IMG/VR virus record: IMGVR_UViG_3300023179_000106
Span: 1-64,000 of that record
Source of the DNA: a virus
Reading direction: 5' to 3' (one strand)
Length of the DNA stretch: 64,000 nucleotides
The number at the start of each line of letters is the position of its first letter. Position 1 is the stretch's first letter. The notes beneath the pieces are model-generated. The model was given only the letters and a program-made list of their open reading frames with translations, was not told the origin of the DNA and did not search any database. This document shows, one piece after another, positions 589 to 49,297 of the stretch. The translations under genes and the position numbers were made by a program.

Positions 589-1515
589 ATGCAGTACTTC
601 GTCAGCTCAGAGAACACGAGTTATTTCTACTGGCAGCTGGAGCTCCTTATCGAGAGTTTCAAGATTCTCGGTATGGAGGACAAGCTCGTCATCGCCATGG
701 CGGAGAACGACTGCCAGAAGATAGGCGGGTTCTCGGCCAACCTCGTGAGGCACGGCAACAAGTTCGTGCACCCGAACGAGGGACGCGAACGCGGCTACCT
801 TCCGCTCAACCGCATAAGCTCGCTGCGGTATGCGCTGGCCTACGGGTTCCTCAAGTTCCCCTTCGCCCTGATACACGCGGACATGGTGATGCGGAGGCCT
901 CTGGAGGAGCCCCGGGGCGAGTTCCCGATCGTGACGCTCAACAACCTTGAGGACTACCCGGCCGCGGAGGAGGAGGCGATCAAGGGGGAGATCAGGGCAA
1001 ATCTGAACACCCTCGCCGAGGCCAACGAGATACCCGTGGACAGCCTGCCCACCGTCCCTTTCTTTTCCGCGCCCGTCGTGTTCAACGAGCCCTTCAAGCA
1101 TATATCGGAGGTGTTCTTCTCCCGCGTCCAGACGAACATGGTGGACATGGTGGGTCGACGCGGAGCGGACTTCCCCTGCGAGAAGGCGGCGTGGGAACTG
1201 ACCCTCGCCGAGTCCTTCCAGTACTGCTCCGTGTCGGGGAAGTTCATGTCGGCGTCCATCCTCTTCGACTCAGAGGACGTCAATTTCCTGCACTACAAGA
1301 CGGGAATACCGCCCGTATTCCACAAGAAGTTCTACCGGTACGAGGACGGCAATTCGTTCTCGGGGCAGGGCCCGTACGAGACGCTGATGGAGAACAACCC
1401 CACCGTGTCGACGGACTATGTGCAGAGGGTGATTAAGTCCTACGTAAACAGCAGGGTCAGAGGCGTCAGGCCGAGCCGTGAGCGTCAAACATCCCCCGCA
1501 GGCGCTCCCGATTGA
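589..1515 (+). CDS. Glycosyltransferase-like protein (possible GT-A fold)
   Basis: A 308-residue soluble protein. The N-terminal half alternates hydrophobic strands and helices in a Rossmann-like pattern. A segment near residue 90 (FPFALIHADMVMRRPL) resembles the strand and D-x-D-like metal site of GT-A nucleotide-sugar transferases, but D-x-D is not exact (HADM). The ATG at 589 lacks a good Shine-Dalgarno sequence, and an out-of-frame ATG sits five bases upstream. The 3' end overlaps the convergent CCA-adding enzyme gene by 50 bases. The product could glycosylate virion or host surface components. The family assignment is an inference from pattern only. Confidence 0.55.
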   Translation: MQYFVSSENTSYFYWQLELLIESFKILGMEDKLVIAMAENDCQKIGGFSANLVRHGNKFVHPNEGRERGYLPLNRISSLRYALAYGFLKFPFALIHADMVMRRPLEEPRGEFPIVTLNNLEDYPAAEEEAIKGEIRANLNTLAEANEIPVDSLPTVPFFSAPVVFNEPFKHISEVFFSRVQTNMVDMVGRRGADFPCEKAAWELTLAESFQYCSVSGKFMSASILFDSEDVNFLHYKTGIPPVFHKKFYRYEDGNSFSGQGPYETLMENNPTVSTDYVQRVIKSYVNSRVRGVRPSRERQTSPAGAPD

Positions 1516-3025
1516 TGTCGCGGAGTATGGCCGACCTCATGCTCGGGTCGACGCCGGCGAGGTTCCTTTTTGAAATCTCCGGGTGAACCTCTGCGGTGCT
1601 CTTGCCTTCGTTGTCCCTCGCGAACCAGTTCACCATCTGCCTGCGGTCCGGCTCGAAGTCTGCGAACTTTCTGAGGTTACTCGCCCACATCGGCTTGGGG
1701 GTTATCACCTTGTCGCCGTCGACCACGTCGAACAGCTCGACCCACCTGTGTATCTGGTCCTTGGTCACCCCGAGGTTTCTGCGGGACGAAAGCAGGCGCT
1801 GCAGGTCGTCCGCGTCGAACTCCTTGAGGCTTATGAGGAAGCAGACCATCTCGGCCTCGTGGTTCGACCACTTCATGCCCGAAAGAGTCCTTCTGACCTC
1901 GTCGGTCGGGTTGTCTTGGAGTATCCACGCGAGGGCAAGGAACCTGTCCTTCTTGTTTCGCATGCCCGGGGGCACGTCCGTCCTCAATGAAAGCCCCGGC
2001 AGGACGGTCTTCAGGAGGCCGAACTTGGCGTATGTCTTGATGTACTTGGTCGGGTCTATGTTCTTGTCCTCGATTCCCTTGACGAACTCCTCGCGGATCC
2101 TTTCCTGTGCAACTCCCTCCAGAGTGGCGAACTTGGGTATGGCCCTAGCCAGCTCTGCGTCGATCGACTTGTCGCTTCCGTACTTCGAGTGGAACCTGAC
2201 GGCCCTGAGTACGCGCAGGCGGTCCTCGTCGAATCTCTTCTCCGCGTTGCCCACGGCACGTATCCTGCCCTCGTGGGCGTCGGCGTAGCCCTTCTTGGTG
2301 GGATCGTACAGCCTCTTGTTCTCGCCGTCGGCCTTGGACAGCTCTATGTACATGGCGTTGATCGTGAAGTCCCTGCGCTCGGCGTCCTCGAGCGGGTTGT
2401 CGACGAAGTCAACCTCGGACTGCCCGTTGACCGTCTTGGCGTCCTTCCTGAAAGTGGCTATCTCGAACTCCTCGCCGTTCACGACGGCTCCGATCACGAA
2501 GGGCTTGTTGTCTCGGCTGGCGTCCCTCCCCTTGAGGTACCAAAGCCTAGCGTCGCCCTCGTCCGCCACCTGCGGCTTGAACGAGAGTCGCATCTCCTTG
2601 GCCATCTCTCCGTCCCTCGCGGTGTGCTTGCCACTCCTGTCGTAGTCGGGGACCATCTTGCCGTCTGGCCCCGGGGCGCCGGGGACTTTGAAGCCCGCGT
2701 TGTGGAGGATGTGGGCGATCTGCTCCGGCGTGGCGTTGGTGGCCATGTCGAAGTCCTTCGGCCTCTCGCCGCGGACGATGTCGCGCACGGCCCCGCCCAC
2801 GAGGTACAGGCTCTTCTTCGGCATGGTGACTTTCTTCGACAGGTCGTTGGTGAGCTCGATGCTCCCGCTGTCCAGGAACGCCTGGATCACCGGTCGCATG
2901 TTGGAATGGGGCTTGAACCCCGGCTCGAGGTTGACGAACTCCTGCTTCCAGTTGGTCTCCCTCTCCTTCTGCTGGGCCTCCTCGTGAATCTTCCTGCTCT
3001 CTATGAACTGCTTGAATGACTTCAT
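1466..3025 (-). CDS. cca: CCA-adding enzyme / tRNA nucleotidyltransferase (class II)
   Basis: A 519-residue protein of the class II nucleotidyltransferase / poly(A) polymerase family, which adds or repairs the 3' CCA of tRNAs using CTP and ATP. Visible motifs are YLVGGAVRD at residues 74-82, the metal-binding D-F-D at 91-93, RRDFTINAMY near 205 and DEDRLRVLRAVRF near 250. A long C-terminal helical region follows. The reading frame stays open far upstream, but ATG 3025 is chosen because the family homology and a CATAAATA promoter-like element both fit it. The N-terminus (MKSFKQFIES) carries a signature shared with unrelated proteins in this window. No tRNA gene is visible nearby. The 3' end overlaps the convergent upstream gene by 50 bases. 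Confidence 0.93.
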   Translation of the reverse strand: MKSFKQFIESRKIHEEAQQKERETNWKQEFVNLEPGFKPHSNMRPVIQAFLDSGSIELTNDLSKKVTMPKKSLYLVGGAVRDIVRGERPKDFDMATNATPEQIAHILHNAGFKVPGAPGPDGKMVPDYDRSGKHTARDGEMAKEMRLSFKPQVADEGDARLWYLKGRDASRDNKPFVIGAVVNGEEFEIATFRKDAKTVNGQSEVDFVDNPLEDAERRDFTINAMYIELSKADGENKRLYDPTKKGYADAHEGRIRAVGNAEKRFDEDRLRVLRAVRFHSKYGSDKSIDAELARAIPKFATLEGVAQERIREEFVKGIEDKNIDPTKYIKTYAKFGLLKTVLPGLSLRTDVPPGMRNKKDRFLALAWILQDNPTDEVRRTLSGMKWSNHEAEMVCFLISLKEFDADDLQRLLSSRRNLGVTKDQIHRWVELFDVVDGDKVITPKPMWASNLRKFADFEPDRRQMVNWFARDNEGKSTAEVHPEISKRNLAGVDPSMRSAILRDINRERLRGMFDAHGSA

Positions 3026-3032
3026 GGTTTTC

Positions 3033-3041
3033 TTATTTATG
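3033..3041 (-). promoter_or_regulatory. T4-late-like promoter element (CATAAATA) before the CCA-adding enzyme gene
   Basis: On the minus strand the bases read CATAAATAAG, one mismatch from the T4 late consensus TATAAATA. The element overlaps the TAA stop of the preceding minus-strand gene and ends 8 bases before the ATG at 3025. There is no other obvious signal between the two genes. Confidence 0.5.
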
Positions 3042-3903
3042 TGGTCACAGGACCAGTTTGGGAAGTAGGTATTCCGGCGCCTACATTTTGCGAATAAGTT
3101 CCGGGAGCATTCTGTAGCGGGGGTTGCGTGGCATTCTTGTTCTTGTTCGTCCCGCCGCTCAATTGATCTGCTATGTCGCCCCAGTCCTGACCGCCTATTT
3201 CGGCGTCTTTGTTCTTGGGGCTGACGGTGAACGAGCACATCATTATTATGTTCGACTGCTGGCCTTGGCGGGATGTCGGGAACTCCTGCCTGTCTTTCAG
3301 AACTGGGTTTTCGACGTTCAGGAGATGGGAGTACTGGAGTGTCCTCGACATGAGCCCCACCTTCATGAGGGACTCCGTGAAGTTCACGGCCGACTGGTAA
3401 GCCGCCGCGTTGTGCTGGGGGCCGGTACTGGTGTCGTATGCGAAGAGCTTCGTCTTCATGTTGCTGCCGCCGGCCGCTATCGATGTGTTGTTGTTGTTGT
3501 CGACCCTCCATATGCCCGGGTCGTCCAGGGGCTTCTGGGATATACCCCGAGCCATGTTCATGGTGCTCCTGCCGGAGTACAAGACCTGCCCGGAGTTCTC
3601 GTCGTAGTTGGTCGGAAGCTGGAGGGGCATGTATATCGCCTTGAGCATCGACCGCCTGATGTCTTCGATGTTGTTGAACTGCGGGACTTGCCCCGGCTCC
3701 GCACCCTTCCTTGCCCTGATGCTGGCGTTTGCCGCGCCGATGCCTCCTATGAGGCTGGCCGTGGCCCTGTTGTTGAACGTGGCGTCCAACGGGAGCATGG
3801 CGCGGGGTCCGTACGTGGCGTCTGGGCCTCGCATAAGCCCCTGTGAAGGGGCGGCGGCCTGGGCGGCCTCCTCCACAGAAATCAGCCATTCAGAGAAGTT
3901 CAT
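3037..3903 (-). CDS. Hypothetical structural-type protein
   Basis: A 288-residue protein that I cannot assign to a family. It begins MNFSEWLISVEEAAQAA, matching the F..WL N-terminal signature seen on several other proteins here. It is rich in Asn, Gln, Gly and Ser and has no membrane segment. An internal FNNIEDIRRSMLKAIYMP segment is followed by repetitive Asn residues. The start ATG overlaps the stop of the upstream gene (ATGA), so the two are probably translationally coupled. The low-complexity C-terminus (TNKNKNATQPP) looks like a disordered tail. Composition suggests a virion or internal head protein, but this is inference. Confidence 0.8.
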   Translation of the reverse strand: MNFSEWLISVEEAAQAAAPSQGLMRGPDATYGPRAMLPLDATFNNRATASLIGGIGAANASIRARKGAEPGQVPQFNNIEDIRRSMLKAIYMPLQLPTNYDENSGQVLYSGRSTMNMARGISQKPLDDPGIWRVDNNNNTSIAAGGSNMKTKLFAYDTSTGPQHNAAAYQSAVNFTESLMKVGLMSRTLQYSHLLNVENPVLKDRQEFPTSRQGQQSNIIMMCSFTVSPKNKDAEIGGQDWGDIADQLSGGTNKNKNATQPPLQNAPGTYSQNVGAGIPTSQTGPVTT

Positions 3904-24659: not shown

Positions 24660-24908
24660 ATGGCGAGGGACATCGAGTTTCGATCCGAATCCGGCAGGAT
24701 ATTGATAGACGGCGAGCCCTTCGACTGGGGGCTTGACGACGAAGCCATCGAAGAGGCCAACAGGCACGCCGGCACGCCTCGCTTCATGAAGGCGATACAC
24801 AACGACATCATGGGTCACTTCCTTGACTCGTTGTCCGAGGTCTTGGGCTTCAGGCCGTCAATGAAGCAGGTAAACGAGGGTCTAGACAGGGGCTTCATAT
24901 CTAAATGA
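24660..24908 (+). CDS. Small hypothetical protein
   Basis: An 82-residue acidic protein with an AGGAG ribosome-binding site close to the ATG. It appears helical and has no cysteines or membrane segments. It overlaps the SET-domain gene by ATGA, so the two may be co-translated. No family recognised. Confidence 0.7.
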   Translation: MARDIEFRSESGRILIDGEPFDWGLDDEAIEEANRHAGTPRFMKAIHNDIMGHFLDSLSEVLGFRPSMKQVNEGLDRGFISK

Positions 24909-25435
24909 TACTCATCGATGAGAACGACGACAGGTTCTACATAGCGAGGTCGACACAGCCGGAGGCCGGCAGGGGGCTGTTCGCGTCGCGCGATATCGAG
25001 GAAGGCGACTGCCTAGAGGTCAAAGGGGTGATGGTGGACAAGGGTTCGCCTGCCGACTCCTGCACCGCCTACGCCGACGCCTTCAAGTTCGCGGCTGACT
25101 ACGCAGGCGTCTACACCCGCCACATAATACCGATGGGCTACGCGGGCATCGTCAACCACGCCAACAACAAGGAAGAGCAGAACGTAGAGATCAGGCACAT
25201 CATGCGCGGAGGCAAGAAGGTCTGTGTGTACCAGTTCGTCAAGCCCGTCGCCGCGGGACAGGAAATCCTCGGGGACTACGGCGACGATTGGAGGGGGCTT
25301 GACGGGTGGAGCAGGAAGGTGAACGAGGCCTCAGACGAGTCGGAGGAGAGGGAGTGGGCCTCTTTTATAGGGCGCGGTCTATATAACCTGGACAGGCTCA
25401 GCAGGCCGAGGGGGGACGATGCCACAGATCAATAA
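24905..25435 (+). CDS. SET-domain protein (putative protein lysine methyltransferase)
   Basis: A 176-residue protein with the SET-domain motif order: GRGLFASRDIEEGDCLEV near residue 22, IVNHANN near 83 (the N-H catalytic/SAM-binding block) and FVKPVAAGQEILGDYGDDW near 110-122 (the E-L-x-x-D-Y block). SET domains transfer a methyl group from S-adenosylmethionine to lysine side chains. The pre- and post-SET cysteine clusters are absent, as in many bacterial and viral examples. It lies inside a structural operon, overlapping the genes on both sides, so the target may be a virion protein or a host factor. The substrate is unknown. Confidence 0.82.
   Translation: MILIDENDDRFYIARSTQPEAGRGLFASRDIEEGDCLEVKGVMVDKGSPADSCTAYADAFKFAADYAGVYTRHIIPMGYAGIVNHANNKEEQNVEIRHIMRGGKKVCVYQFVKPVAAGQEILGDYGDDWRGLDGWSRKVNEASDESEEREWASFIGRGLYNLDRLSRPRGDDATDQ
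25379..25388 (+). promoter_or_regulatory. CTATATAACC late-promoter-like element within the SET gene
   Basis: CTATATAACC lies 30 bases upstream of the ATG at 25419, inside the 3' end of the SET gene. It could start an adhesin-region transcript. A second AT-rich site (TTTTATAGGG) occurs 15 bases further upstream. Confidence 0.35.
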
Positions 25436-36683: not shown

Positions 36684-36693
36684 GGTGTACAAA

Positions 36694-37713
36694 ATGAGGA
36701 TCGGATTCGACTGTGGCACTTATCATCTGGTGAGCTGCAAAAGGGGCGAGGACAACGCCTTGTCGTACAAGAAAGAAGTTAACGCTTTCCTTCAGATGCC
36801 GTTGGACAACCGCTTCGTCTTCAACATGATGAAGAACGCGGGAGTCCCTTTGATCGAGCAGCCAGAGGCCAACGTGGGCTACGCCCTAGGCGAGGCTGCC
36901 GTGAACATGGCCTACACTATGACTCAAATCGAACTCAAGAGGCCCATGAAGGACGGATGCCTCAACCCCAAGGAGAAGCACGCCCAGCAGATAATGAATG
37001 TCATGTGCCACAGCCTCATAGGCGACGTGGACGAGGACGGCTCCCTTCTGTACTACTCGGTTCCCGCGAACGCCATCAACCAAGAGACCGACGCCGACTA
37101 TCACGGCAAGGTGTTGGAGGCGATGTTCAAGTCATACAGAAGCGAGAAGGGATACCGCGTGGAGCCTCACCCCATCAACGAGGCCTTGGCGCTCGTGTAT
37201 GCGGAACTGCAGGGCAAGGCTTGGACGGGCGTGGGGATCAGCTTCGGGGCCGGAATGGTGAACCTCTGCTATGCCATGTACGGGGCTCCGATATTTCAGT
37301 TCTCCCTGGTGAACAGCGGCGACTGGATCGATAAGATGGCGTCCAAGGCCATCGGAGAGGATACGACCACCTATGTGAACAGGGAAAAGATGCACGCCGA
37401 CCTGACCGTGGAACACCCGGAGACCCTGGTCCAGAGGGCCATAAAGTCCCAGTACGAGATAATGATCCAGCACACCGTGGCGGGCATCAAGAAGGGCGTC
37501 GAGGAGGCGGGCAACAAGGCTCGATCCGAACAGCCAATAGACATCGTCATAGCTGGCGGCACGAGCATGCCGAAGGGCTTCGACGTTCTGTTCAGGAAGA
37601 TACTCGAGCAGGCGAAGATAACGAACATGAAGATCGGGGAGGTGATCCGCCCGGCGGATCCGCTATTCTCGGTGGCGCGCGGCTGCCTGATCGCCGCAGA
37701 AAACGCGAAGTAG
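36694..37713 (+). CDS. Actin/Hsp70-like ATPase (ParM/MreB-type fold)
   Basis: A 339-residue protein with the three nucleotide-binding motifs of the actin-Hsp70-sugar kinase superfamily: phosphate-1 IGFDCGTYHLV at residues 3-13, phosphate-2 ISFGAGMVNLCYA near 182, and the adenosine motif IVIAGGTSMPKGF near 285. Family members bind ATP and either polymerise (ParM, MreB, Alp) or act as chaperones. The length fits ParM/MreB better than Hsp70. A role in genome or virion positioning is a hypothesis. ATG 36694 is chosen because GAGGTG lies at a proper distance. GTG 36685 is the alternative. Confidence 0.85.
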   Translation: MRIGFDCGTYHLVSCKRGEDNALSYKKEVNAFLQMPLDNRFVFNMMKNAGVPLIEQPEANVGYALGEAAVNMAYTMTQIELKRPMKDGCLNPKEKHAQQIMNVMCHSLIGDVDEDGSLLYYSVPANAINQETDADYHGKVLEAMFKSYRSEKGYRVEPHPINEALALVYAELQGKAWTGVGISFGAGMVNLCYAMYGAPIFQFSLVNSGDWIDKMASKAIGEDTTTYVNREKMHADLTVEHPETLVQRAIKSQYEIMIQHTVAGIKKGVEEAGNKARSEQPIDIVIAGGTSMPKGFDVLFRKILEQAKITNMKIGEVIRPADPLFSVARGCLIAAENAK

Positions 37714-45506: not shown

Positions 45507-46229
45507 TCAGCGCATGAATTTACGAACCAGTTTGCCTCCCGACTCCTCCCACATGCCGTCGGACAGGGCCTGGGCGACGCAAGCCGCGGAGGCCAAGCGG
45601 GCCTCTTTTGGGTCGTGCACGACCTCGTCGACCAGCTTGCCTGACGGGTCGAATTCGTAGTAGGAATCCGAGGCGATCTCCACCTCTAGGTCTGGGCTCA
45701 CATTGAGCACAGAGACGACTGGCAGGTCTGATATCTTGGCGTATTTCGGCTCCCTGACCGCCACGATCGCGCCTCCGCCCTTCGTTTTGACGACCTTGTC
45801 GCCCCGATTGAGGCCGACGAGAACCTCGGCCCAGGACTTCGAAGAAAGCGCCTTGATTTCGTTGGGCTCCACTATCTTCCAAGCCACAAACACTTCCCGG
45901 AAAATGTTCGATATGTCCGCGCCTTGATCTTTTGCGCAGGCCACCATGCATTTCGCCGCGGCCGAATAGTACTTGGGCGTTCTGGGGGTGAGGGGCACGG
46001 CCTTGAGCAGGACGGAAAAGCATATGTCTCTGGCCTTCTTGAACGCCACGGACCTCGCGTCTCCTTTGGCCACAAGGGAGTCATAGACCTTGGTGAATGC
46101 GTTGTACCAGGCTGCCGAAAAAACCCTTCCGAAGCTGTGGCACTCCGCCGCTAGCTTGTTGTTGGATGTTTCGGCGGGAAGCTTGGACGGGTCGACGTAC
46201 AGGAAAAGCTCTCTGGCGGGGTCGCGCAA
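45507..46229 (-). pseudogene. C-terminal half of a frameshifted thermolysin-like metalloprotease
   Basis: Read alone this frame gives 240 residues from TTG 46229 (LRDPARELFLYVDPSKL). The frame remains open further upstream, and its reading between about 46250 and 46229 (DPSYLPNALRDPARE) joins sensibly to the N-terminal half encoded at 46151-46903. It contains CHSFGRVFSAAWYNAFTK near residue 31, matching the H..G..F..A.Y block of thermolysin-type (M4) peptidases. The C-terminal third (150-240) is beta-rich and may be a separate domain. A -1 shift in reading (or a one-base deletion) is needed to join the halves. Confidence 0.65.
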
Positions 46230-46903
46230 GGCGTTGGGGAGGTAGGACGGGTCTTGGTGACGGCCCTTATGAGTTCGCCGACCTCTTCGGCAAGGCGGGA
46301 GGCGGAGTTGGAGAGCCTCAGGTCGCCGCCCGTTTCCTTGAGTACCTTTTCTATCACCGCGTCATAATTCATGAGATTGAACATCGCCACGATGTCGGAG
46401 AACGCCTCGTGGAACGACCATATCTCGAGAGCCTGGACGCTCCAGAAGTCGGGTCTCATAGAGTCGAGCACGGCGTGTCCCAGTTCGTGCGTCACTATGT
46501 CCGAGGAGTCTGCGAAGTATGTGTTTTTGCCCCTGTAGTTGTAGTAGAAGAACCTGAGGGAACGCCTGTCGTAGTACGCGTTCATTTCTACCCCGGCCGC
46601 CGGAATCACGGAAAGAGAGCTGGTGGCCGCCCACCGCTGCAGGGGCGACTTCAGCAGGGCCTGGATCGCGTTTATGCAGGATCCCACGGAGATGTGGCAG
46701 TTGAGGGCCCTTCTTTCGCTGGCGTTTTTTGGCTGCGGCGACAGGCCTTGAACCGAGTATTTCAGAGCCCCAATGGCGGGCGGCTGGACGTTCGCTACCA
46801 GGTCGGGGGTGGTGGGGTCGTTTATCACGAAGCCTCCAACCATGTTGACCAGTTCCGCGCGTATCTTTGCGAGGCGTCCCGCCTCCGTGGTTTTCTTGAG
46901 CAT
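46151..46903 (-). CDS. Thermolysin-like (M4) metalloprotease, N-terminal half, frame changes near 46255
   Basis: A 250-residue frame starting ATG 46903 with AAGGAGG 4-5 bases upstream. The zinc-binding HELGH is at residues 139-143 (SDIVTHELGHAVLDSM) and the third ligand Glu at 166 in WSFHEAFSDIVAMF, the hallmark of M4 peptidases. There is no signal peptide. The frame is protein-like until about residue 220 (LIRAVTK), after which it degenerates to low-complexity Thr/Pro/Ser, while the overlapping frame continues the family homology. The gene may be a pseudogene, need programmed frameshifting, or contain a sequence error. Confidence 0.72.
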   Translation of the reverse strand: MLKKTTEAGRLAKIRAELVNMVGGFVINDPTTPDLVANVQPPAIGALKYSVQGLSPQPKNASERRALNCHISVGSCINAIQALLKSPLQRWAATSSLSVIPAAGVEMNAYYDRRSLRFFYYNYRGKNTYFADSSDIVTHELGHAVLDSMRPDFWSVQALEIWSFHEAFSDIVAMFNLMNYDAVIEKVLKETGGDLRLSNSASRLAEEVGELIRAVTKTRPTSPTPCATPPESFSCTSTRPSFPPKHPTTS

Positions 46904-46925
46904 GCTACCTCCTTGTGGCTCTAAA

Positions 46926-46935
46926 CATATATACG
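46926..46935 (+). promoter_or_regulatory. CATATATACG promoter-like element between divergent genes
   Basis: CATATATACG lies between the divergent metalloprotease (start 46903) and MscL-like (start 46953) genes. A perfect AGGAGG follows it at 46941. The core is symmetric, so it may serve both directions. Confidence 0.4.
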
Positions 46936-46952
46936 CAACTAGGAGGTGCATA

Positions 46953-47570
46953 ATGATGGATTCCTTCCACTCGCACGAAAGAGCGTTCATCGGACGAATA
47001 GGGGAGAAAGAATGGAGGGAATACAAGAGATTCGCCTTCAGGGACGACATGCTGAAGCTGAGCGTGGGAGTCGTGCTCGGAAGCGCATTCAACAAGGTGG
47101 CAAACAGCATTTCCGACAACCTCTTGATGCCCGTTCTGTCGTTCCTCGCGCTTGATGCCGGGGAGGCCTGGAGGGACTGGTCTTGGAGTCCTCTGGTCGG
47201 CCTGAACTTCAGGCTGGGGCGGGTTGCGGGAGACGGGTTCGACTTTCTTATCGTTTCGGTCGCCCTCTATCTCGTTTATGTCAAGATGGCCGGTTTTGGG
47301 CCGAAAGAGCCCCCTCCATGCAGGCGGTGTCGCCTGTGCATGGAGTGCGTGAACCCCGAGGCGGTCAAATGCAGGTCTTGTGGAGGAGAACTAGATGGCG
47401 TCGAAAGAAGAGATCGAGTCGAGGATAAAGGAACAAAGGACGGCGGAGGCGAACAAAAAAGGACTGATGGGTCAAGGAGGAAAGATCGGAACCGTGCTTC
47501 GGATGCTGGGAAGTCCGATAGTCGGCCAGTCGGAAGACGTCGCGTTCCTCGATCTCGAGGGAAGGGGTGA
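46953..47570 (+). CDS. mscL: MscL-like mechanosensitive channel with zinc-ribbon-like tail
   Basis: A 205-residue protein. Residues 24-112 align by eye with large-conductance mechanosensitive channels: an N-terminal amphipathic helix, TM1 LKLSVGVVLGSAFNKVANSI near 35-53, and TM2 DGFDFLIVSVALYLVYVKM near 94-112. The DFLIV motif in TM2 is characteristic. Residues 123-143 carry C..C..C..C and a later C..C pair, a possible metal ribbon. The last 60 residues are charged, rich in Arg, Lys, Asp and Gly, and overlap the next gene. It would pass ions and small solutes under membrane tension. A role in lysis or osmotic protection is inference. Confidence 0.85.
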   Translation: MMDSFHSHERAFIGRIGEKEWREYKRFAFRDDMLKLSVGVVLGSAFNKVANSISDNLLMPVLSFLALDAGEAWRDWSWSPLVGLNFRLGRVAGDGFDFLIVSVALYLVYVKMAGFGPKEPPPCRRCRLCMECVNPEAVKCRSCGGELDGVERRDRVEDKGTKDGGGEQKRTDGSRRKDRNRASDAGKSDSRPVGRRRVPRSRGKG

Positions 47571-47988
47571 CGACCCGACTGGGTCGCCCATGATGGACCT
47601 GCCGGTCGCATACCTAGAAGGGGTCATGAGGCCCGAGGGCGTCGAGTGGGGGGACATAGCAGACGCCGTCCCGGTTTCTACGAGGACAGCCGGAATGCAC
47701 TTCGACGGCCTCAGTCGATCGATGCATCTTGAGATAATCTACAAGGACGAACCGCCGGAATTGAGCGTCTATCACAGGGGCCACTTGGTCTACAGAGAAG
47801 TCCAAGGCGACCTCGTCTGCTATGTGCCGCTAGACGAGTGGGAGGAGTGGGTGTCGTCCCTCTTCAAGACGGCGAAAAGAATTCAAAGGGAGTCCAAGGA
47901 ACTGGAGTTCAAGGAGAGGGTTCAACAGGCCGACGAGTCAAAGCAGTCTTGGCTCAGGCACATCGCATCCCGATGGGGAATCACATGA
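47395..47988 (+). CDS. Hypothetical protein overlapping the MscL-like gene
   Basis: A 197-residue soluble protein starting ATG 47395 with GGAGGAG 6 bases upstream. The N-terminus is helical and charged, and the centre is beta-rich (MHLEIIYKDEPPELSVYHRG). The 176-base overlap with the MscL-like frame is unusually long, yet both frames look like real proteins over at least part of it. No family recognised. It ends overlapping a convergent gene by 8 bases. Confidence 0.72.
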   Translation: MASKEEIESRIKEQRTAEANKKGLMGQGGKIGTVLRMLGSPIVGQSEDVAFLDLEGRGDDPTGSPMMDLPVAYLEGVMRPEGVEWGDIADAVPVSTRTAGMHFDGLSRSMHLEIIYKDEPPELSVYHRGHLVYREVQGDLVCYVPLDEWEEWVSSLFKTAKRIQRESKELEFKERVQQADESKQSWLRHIASRWGIT

Positions 47989-48352
47989 AGAAAAGCACAT
48001 ACGCCAACGCGGCGACCTGAACGAGTATGATCGCGCCGAACACATAGATGCTCTTTTTGATTCCCGATATCTTCTTCTCCACGGCGGCCCTCATCGGAGA
48101 AGCCACCGACTGCACAGAGGCCTGTCCGCCTCCCGCACAGAGGTTCTCGACGACGCTGCTTACCACCTCGCCGGTTGTCTCGTCAAGGGTCTGCGTCTCG
48201 CGCTCGCAGACGCAGAGCCTCTCGATCACGCGTTGAGACAGGCGCTTCACGGCCTTGGGCTCGACGTAGACCTCCGTGACCTTTGTGCGGGCGTCTGGGG
48301 CCATCTCGACCTTCTCTGCCTTCCTGCCGTCGTCAAGCGTGAACTCTGTCAT
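47981..48352 (-). CDS. Small tail-anchored membrane protein
   Basis: A 123-residue protein with a soluble N-terminal region containing a Cys pair (RLCVCERETQ), a Gly-rich hinge, and a C-terminal membrane helix (IYVFGAIILVQVAALAYVLF). Start ATG 48352 is preceded by GGAG and a CATAAATA element 28 bases upstream. The single C-terminal anchor resembles spanin or holin accessory proteins, but I recognise no family. Lysis involvement is a hypothesis. Confidence 0.72.
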   Translation of the reverse strand: MTEFTLDDGRKAEKVEMAPDARTKVTEVYVEPKAVKRLSQRVIERLCVCERETQTLDETTGEVVSSVVENLCAGGGQASVQSVASPMRAAVEKKISGIKKSIYVFGAIILVQVAALAYVLFFM

Positions 48353-48380
48353 TTTAAGTCTCCTTGTTTTGATCCGAGAG

Positions 48381-48388
48381 TATTTATG
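48381..48388 (-). promoter_or_regulatory. CATAAATA late-promoter-like element (minus strand)
   Basis: On the minus strand CATAAATA lies 28 bases before the ATG at 48352, at a conventional promoter-to-ribosome-binding-site distance. A GGAG lies between the element and the start. Confidence 0.5.
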
Positions 48389-48421
48389 GGCCGGCGAAAA
48401 AATTTGCGGACACAAAAAGCA

Positions 48422-48455
48422 GGGGGTCGATTGGTCTTTTGACCAATCGACCCCC
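48422..48455 (-). terminator. Rho-independent terminator downstream of the 48479-48763 gene
   Basis: A perfect 15-bp stem (GGGGGTCGATTGGTC and its complement) encloses a 4-base loop at 48437-48440. Read on the minus strand the stem is followed by GCTTTTTGTG. It lies 23 bases past the stop at 48479, so it fits the minus-strand gene. Confidence 0.85.
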
Positions 48456-48478
48456 TCAAGACCGCGTCGGGCGGGATT

Positions 48479-48763
48479 TCAGGCTCCGTGGACGACCAGA
48501 TCAGCAAGCGTGTGCTTGCTGAGCGTGGTCCGAGAAGAGCCACGGATGGTTGCCATCTCGCTCTTCTTGAAGCTCTTGACGGGGGCGTCCTGGAGGCGGG
48601 CGCAGACTGCGTTGCCCCTCCGCAGGACATATCCCTTCACGATGTTGCCCTTCACCTCCGTGACCGCGAGGGTCGTCCGAACGGGCTTGCTGTGGGTTCC
48701 CTTGTAGAAGAACTTCCAGACGGGAAGGTTCCTGATGAGGCAAAAGTCATTGGTCTTCGACAT
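48479..48763 (-). CDS. Small basic hypothetical protein
   Basis: A 94-residue basic protein. The core (KPVRTTLAVTEVKGNIVKGY and VLRRGNAVCARLQDA) is beta-rich, suggesting a small barrel that could bind nucleic acid. GGAG lies 10 bases before ATG 48763, and the gene is followed by a strong terminator, so it is probably a single-gene transcript. Function unknown. Confidence 0.72.
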   Translation of the reverse strand: MSKTNDFCLIRNLPVWKFFYKGTHSKPVRTTLAVTEVKGNIVKGYVLRRGNAVCARLQDAPVKSFKKSEMATIRGSSRTTLSKHTLADLVVHGA

Positions 48764-48826
48764 TTTTGAACTCCTTTCTTTTAAGTTCAGGTGTGTGGTC
48801 ACATTCTAACAAAATCTAAGCCGCTG

Positions 48827-49297
48827 TCAACGTCTTCCTTCAAGCATCTCCAAGATGTTGTCGGCGTCCGCTCGGCTGTCGAGAATCTGGTCTTCCAGGA
48901 ACAACGCGACATACATCCCGTCGACGGAGTCCTCGGGCGACGAGGCCGCCAGCTCCTCGGCCTGCGCATGGCGCAGGACGTAGTTCTGCACGACTTGATC
49001 TTCAAGCGCCAGCGCGGAACGGAGGATTTCCGCTGGGTCCGACGACTTGACCTGAAATTCCCCGACGGCACTGGGGACTGACGGGTCTAACCCGCGGCGG
49101 GTCGCGATGCCGTGAATCAGCCTGCGGAACTGTTCGATGTGCTTCATTTCCCCGGAGGCCTGCTCCAGGAAGAACTCCGACATTTCTTCGCGGTGCAGGC
49201 CACGCACGGTGGTGGCGGCCTGCATGTAGAAGTGCCAGTGTGCGTACTCATTCGCCAGGTCGACCTTCAGGAGGCCAACCATCTCGTCAATCTTCAT
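48827..49297 (-). CDS. Ferritin-like / bacterioferritin-like protein
   Basis: A 156-residue four-helix protein. Helix A contains NEYAHWHFYMQAA, helix B contains EQASGEMKHIEQFRRLI (the E..H metal site), and later helices contain LALEDQVVQNYVLRH and LFLEDQILDSRADADNIL, giving the repeated E-x-x-H/E pattern of ferritin-like di-iron proteins. Bacterioferritins and DPS-like proteins oxidise and store iron and protect DNA. ATG 49297 is chosen because the homology starts there. The start overlaps the upstream gene by 11 bases. Confidence 0.8.
   Translation of the reverse strand: MKIDEMVGLLKVDLANEYAHWHFYMQAATTVRGLHREEMSEFFLEQASGEMKHIEQFRRLIHGIATRRGLDPSVPSAVGEFQVKSSDPAEILRSALALEDQVVQNYVLRHAQAEELAASSPEDSVDGMYVALFLEDQILDSRADADNILEMLEGRR

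Follow-up and report, generated by a model that had tools for sequence, protein, structure and literature searches.

The gene at positions 46953-47570 (plus strand) of the 64,000-nucleotide stretch of phage DNA analysed here (the window) encodes, judging from its sequence, a genuine member of the MscL family with two membrane helices, and the interest of this phage MscL lies in its rewritten S1-TM1 linker rather than in its cysteines. As far as the aligned residues allow us to judge, the change from G14-N15-x-x-D18 to acidic/Q-D-x-x-K is clade-wide among the 11 phage MscLs compared, and suggests that the virus has altered the conditions under which the channel opens. Our preferred explanation, to which we assign a probability of roughly 45%, is that these proteins form a phage-specific MscL branch acting as tension-gated relief valves whose opening threshold has changed, probably downwards. 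During infection, the phage protein would assemble in the inner membrane of the host into an oligomeric pore of MscL type, which would open once turgor stretches the membrane, releasing solutes. The changed linker would reset the threshold, most likely making the channel easier to open than the MscL of the host, and the channel would serve as a relief valve for a cell swollen by phage production. In support of the valve we offer the match to PF01741, the MscL fold, the retention of the gate residues and the replacement of N15 by D in 11/11 phage proteins. If true, this would be a case in which a virus retunes the mechanical threshold of the host membrane.

Identity and predicted structure of the channel

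The open reading frame is confirmed exactly as first described; it encodes a product of 205 aa and is preceded by AGGAGG (46941..46946, plus strand), a likely ribosome-binding site. The preliminary description had proposed a phage-borne MscL homologue and a profile search to check it, and the assignment holds: the product matches PF01741 (MscL) at 6e-15 (56.1 bits; gathering score 27.4), and its sequence matches in the PDB are solved MscL chains. Its score against the NCBIfam equivalog TIGR00220 (mscL) is below the cut-off (45.9 bits; cut-off 71). The protein aligns without gaps through TM1 to the 136-residue chain 9tiu, which we take to carry E. coli MscL numbering, at an offset of 17, and residue n of the window protein is accordingly equated with residue n-17 of that chain. 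On this basis L36, G39, V40 and G43 correspond to L19, G22, V23 and G26, the hydrophobic gate and close-packed glycines of TM1, all of which are kept. G26 and F29 are retained in all 11 phage proteins, G22 in 10/11, and V23 is V or I in 10/11. In these gate residues, and in the FDFLIV of TM2 (residues 96-101), the window protein agrees with E. coli-type MscL (PDB 9tiu, 28oa), but a ribbon and a basic tail replace the C-terminal helix in which E. coli-type MscL ends, and G14, N15 and D18 are all replaced. With respect to pore-lining residues, which the preliminary description expected in an MscL, the hydrophobic gate and G26 are therefore present, while the linker motif G14-N15-x-x-D18 is absent.

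MscL channels are pentamers with a tension-gated conductance in the nanosiemens range. The AlphaFold2 model of the window protein, a single chain with a pTM of 0.35, contains helices at residues 5-15, 18-68 and 88-113 and a hairpin at 77-87, their sidedness being taken from homology. The long helix at 18-68 (47004..47156, plus strand) would comprise S1, the linker and TM1, the beta hairpin (47181..47213, plus strand) would be periplasmic, and the helix at 88-113 (47214..47291, plus strand), which includes FDFLIV, would be TM2. Fold comparison was led by MscL entries of the PDB (4y7k, Z 5.8 over 95 residues; 3hzq, Z 5.2 over 92 residues), and the MscL model, searched against the viral structure library, had no match at E 0.001 or better.

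The S1-TM1 linker

The rewritten linker occupies residues 31-35 (47043..47057, plus strand), where DDMLK replaces GNxxD, placing D31, D32 and K35 at the sites of G14, N15 and D18, and the canonical NhhD gating motif is not matched. None of the 11 distinct full-length phage homologues has G, N or D respectively at positions 14, 15 and 18 (this set omits L010, which has the same MscL as L009, and the 5'-truncated L007). At position 14 the phage proteins carry D (7), E (3) or Q (1), compared to G in 79/79 bacterial proteins; at position 15 all 11 carry D, compared to N in 79/79; and at position 18 ten carry K and one S, compared to D in 77 and S in two of the 79. One bacterial locus (L067) was left out of this set as its extracted frame was only 7 aa. 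A further 60 bacterial loci, being the best 30 of 137 and the best 30 of 87 genomes matched, kept G, N and D in every case (60/60). These came from two phylum samples of 299 and 198 genomes scanned with the phage alignment, with 224 matching genomes altogether, and at least two genomes are common to the sets of 79 and 60. Since the 11 phage sequences form one clade, the linker change may represent a single event. We know of no electrophysiology on phage MscL proteins. In the literature we recognised no paper describing the phage MscL clade or its linker, and the word 'mechanosensitive' was not found in the available part of the PMC7162821 text. MscL genes have been described in estuarine Caudoviricetes contigs, where their abundance rises with salinity, although the portion of that report available to us (PMC13288924) states no sequence, linker or ribbon for them.

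The G-N-x-x-D linker is regarded as central to MscL gating, and in E. coli few changes to it are tolerated (PMC4569298). R13-D18 is highly conserved, with N15 and D18 lying within the conserved NhhD motif and proposed to be essential to the water chain leading to opening. G14 is described as a hinge, and the mutations G14C and D18C cause strong loss of function (PMC4569298). N15D arose on the chromosome as a suppressor of defective K+ transport and is gain-of-function, and the growth of E. coli is severely inhibited when N15D MscL is expressed from a plasmid (PMC1890815). The phage linker therefore includes a residue known as gain-of-function from laboratory work, but the phage proteins, which share D15 with the N15D mutant, are additionally changed at positions 14 and 18. 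Since G14C and D18C cause loss of function, the phage replacements at these two positions may offset or reverse the effect of N15D. Of the three exact substitutions, N15D alone has an effect that we found in print; for this reason we lean towards easier opening, and the direction of the combined linker change is thus a prediction. A natural clade in which all three linker residues are replaced, yet which is under purifying selection, provides a ready test of the role of the linker.

An alternative is that the channel is tighter or otherwise tuned, either because a D15/K18 salt bridge, within the helix or between subunits, keeps it shut, or through ion, voltage or metal tuning via the ribbon. 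D15 is paired with K18 in 10/11 phage proteins, which together with the loss of function of E. coli G14C and D18C (PMC4569298) would fit such a channel. The pair is not obligatory, however, as L012 combines D15 with S18, unlike the other ten, and purifying selection would not be expected to persist on a permanently closed channel; we therefore consider this alternative unlikely.

The MscL pore is wide, as would suit a role that is not primarily osmotic, such as DNA entry, exclusion of other phages or solute uptake. Solute uptake would also be in keeping with the suppression of a K+ uptake defect by N15D (Buurman et al. 2004, as cited in PMC1890815), but no result in our analysis points to entry or exclusion, and we judge such a role to be quite improbable. 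We advance only tentatively, at odds clearly below even, the proposal that one lineage of large T4-like phages carries, as a fixed trait, a natural gain-of-function MscL. In it the hinge-and-sensor motif, which nearly all of the sampled bacterial MscLs retain, would have been recoded to acidic-D-x-x-K, and the channel would open under low tension, as the phage's own membrane valve or permeabiliser; the ribbon and basic tail would dock a phage or host factor at the cytosolic face.

Cysteine ribbon, overlapping gene and expression

The six cysteines of the window protein (123, 126, 129, 132, 140 and 143) had drawn attention as a possible metal site or redox gate. Four of them make up a zinc-ribbon-like motif, C126-x2-C129-x10-C140-x2-C143 (47328..47381, plus strand), on the C-terminal side, which is invariant in 38/38 sequences of alignment A5, is modelled with a pLDDT of about 83-92, and resembles RanBP/NZF-type fingers (Z 2-4); it is probably a ribbon of metal-binding type. 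C123 and C132, in contrast, are particular to the window protein among the 38 sequences. The motif is also ordinary: C-terminal CxxC-x8-12-CxxC is present in 11/11 phage proteins and in 79/80 bacterial loci, although the latter set is biased, as the query patterns included the ribbon, and its frequency in the two bacterial samples from the phage-alignment scan was 3/30 and 28/30. Because bacterial MscLs often end in a ribbon too, as these sample counts indicate, the ribbon is most likely an inherited bacterial feature and not a phage invention. With two of the six cysteines unconserved and the other four constituting a common bacterial ribbon, we rejected a special redox gate made by a cysteine quartet as the main finding; nothing in the analysis points to redox gating, and the ribbon loses the special status that the preliminary description had given it. 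None of eight viral zinc-ribbon-only loci contained MscL.

The bacterial MscLs that carry the ribbon (e.g. L052 from Paenibacillus, L062 from Anaerolineae and L077 from Geobacter) share S1, TM1, the periplasmic loop, TM2 and CxxC-x10-CxxC at the same place, and in A5 they are 22-31% identical to the window protein. They differ from the phage proteins in their linker (GNxxD compared to acidic/Q-D-x-x-K), and the phage proteins, unlike them, have the loop SKTGDxWRxW and PxxGLxFExG.

Beyond the ribbon lies a basic, probably disordered tail (residues 148-205; 47394..47567, plus strand) with a net charge of +9 and a pLDDT mostly under 50. It is overlapped in a different frame by a conserved gene of 197 aa that starts inside the MscL frame (47395..47988, plus strand), for which there was no Pfam or PHROG match, and nothing confident in a fold search (best E 0.077). 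The Shine-Dalgarno sequence of this downstream gene, GGAGGAG (47382-47388), lies in the codons at and just after the last cysteine of the ribbon, and coupled translation of the two genes is likely. The overlap is found in 9/9 loci with the same neighbours, measuring 176 nt in the window, L007 and L008, 62 nt in L009, L011, L013, L022 and L037, and 34 nt in L012. Its frame offset is identical in 8/9, and we therefore do not favour an assembly frameshift as the origin of the long tail. Within the overlap, differences between the window and L008 fall 6, 7 and 32 times at the first, second and third codon positions of the downstream gene, and identity is 26/58 in the MscL tail frame compared to 20/58 in the third frame, a pattern that marks the frame of the downstream gene as the constrained one. 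The idea of the tail as a conserved functional domain is thus not supported.

Upstream of MscL is a divergent thermolysin-like gene (46151..46903, minus strand), which contains HELGH and is M4-like, although below the Pfam cut-off; it is syntenic in relatives both with and without MscL. Between the two genes lies TATATA (46928..46933), a possible T4-type late promoter on the basis of the T4-type late consensus. The hexamer occurs eight times in the window, and five of these occurrences lie 15-45 nt before a called start, compared to 25/248 for AT-only hexamers (p about 4e-4, for a motif chosen after looking and with mechanical ORFs as the called genes). Scanning 46000-49000 for sigma-70-type promoters gave no site upstream of the MscL gene.

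Late expression, which the TATATA element could mean, would be in keeping with a lysis aid, in which a leaky or easily opened late MscL depolarises or permeabilises the inner membrane in the manner of a holin or pinholin, beside the phage's lysis genes, and the severe growth inhibition by plasmid-borne N15D MscL (PMC1890815) would point the same way. Holins are membrane proteins that permeabilise the membrane at a set time, and their genes usually adjoin that of an endolysin. However, no lysis gene or endolysin was recognised among the neighbours searched, none of seven PHROG matches carried a holin label, and the retained gate and full MscL architecture exceed the needs of a leak; we therefore regard a lysis function as doubtful. 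The preliminary description had argued for lysis from the lack of another recognised holin in the window, but since this is a 65-kb fragment with relatives on records of up to 323 kb, that absence is uninformative.

Phage setting, distribution and descent

The window belongs to a virus record of 65,674 bases, and its PHROG matches include terminase (phrog_2), portal (phrog_213), baseplate wedge (phrog_219), primase and DNA end protector, and it is therefore a fragment of a T4-like myovirus. Within the phage collection, the uncultured 595-kb phage LR756511 comes nearest (portal 57%, TerL 49% identity); no MscL match was found in it. A TerL search identified 16 related loci, with MscL above the Pfam cut-off in 7/16 records, where it always sits between the M4-like and 47395-type genes. 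A scan with the phage alignment yielded 11 loci, four of them new (L037, L039, L040 and L041) and all four above the Pfam cut-off. The gene neighbours in L037 are as in the window; in the records of L039, L040 and L041 (251,265, 323,267 and 65,618 bases) MscL is placed elsewhere, and in two of these three the TerL is 51% identical to that of the window. In L015 and L018 the M4-like and 47395-type genes adjoin, with fewer than 50 bases between matches and no MscL. Since both neighbours are kept there, phage MscL is an accessory gene that has been gained or lost, and its function is evidently dispensable, as L015, L018 and LR756511 do without it.

The 11 phage proteins form one clade, with SH-aLRT support of 100 in two trees (93 and 97 rows). 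In the 97-row tree the starred set comprises 27 rows, 11 phage and 16 bacterial. The stem of the phage clade is long, so its bacterial source is unsure, and a genome scan for that source with the phage-only alignment found nothing. Nei-Gojobori dN/dS ratios for close pairs are 0.224 (window/L008), 0.149 (L011/L013) and 0.143 (L039/L041), and range from 0.117 to 0.426, with one undefined, across the 14/55 pairs with pS under 0.74. Phage MscL is thus a conserved phage gene under purifying selection.

Many MscL hits in public phage records resemble host DNA, which raises the question of whether the window gene is an ordinary host MscL, acquired by contamination or chance pick-up and without a role in the phage. 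This is extremely unlikely given its synteny with phage genes in the window, in seven further TerL-related records (with the M4-like neighbour) and in L037, and given that the phage proteins form a single clade with a distinctive linker and that dN/dS is far below 1; contamination in particular is contradicted by the synteny and the single phage clade. The public phage-collection hits are mostly unannotated fecal, Listeria, Salmonella or Acinetobacter records, among which one fecal contig (L002) contains ordinary bacterial genes; of the others we examined the MscL frames of four fecal contigs and the record of Lacticaseibacillus phage R23.1. The latter (OP869847.1; L142:7082-7450) is a 14.5-kb satellite-like record with a canonical MscL, annotated as a hypothetical protein, near an integrase and without the ribbon. 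Canonical MscL is likewise found at 35 IMG/VR loci (L205-L239) which, like R23.1, are on records labelled viral and may be prophage cargo or flanking host DNA; GNxxD is present in 31/35 and four were not parsed by the pattern, though the search pattern itself favours GN.

Several other genes in these records deserve mention. The window contains an actin-like gene with a strong match to Pfam Volactin (36685-37713, plus strand; E 1.4e-62), here on a T4-like phage, and a SET-domain protein above the Pfam cut-off (24905-25435, plus strand; E 2.3e-6). A ferritin-like protein (PF00210; 48827-49351, minus strand) lies close to TerL in most relatives, some of which have no MscL. A poly(A) polymerase/CCA-adding head domain is encoded at 1466-3889 (minus strand), and such a gene also occurs near MscL in L040, the 323-kb record, where a caspase-domain protein (Peptidase_C14, E 1.7e-6; L040:4932-5870, minus strand) is divergent from the adjoining MscL.
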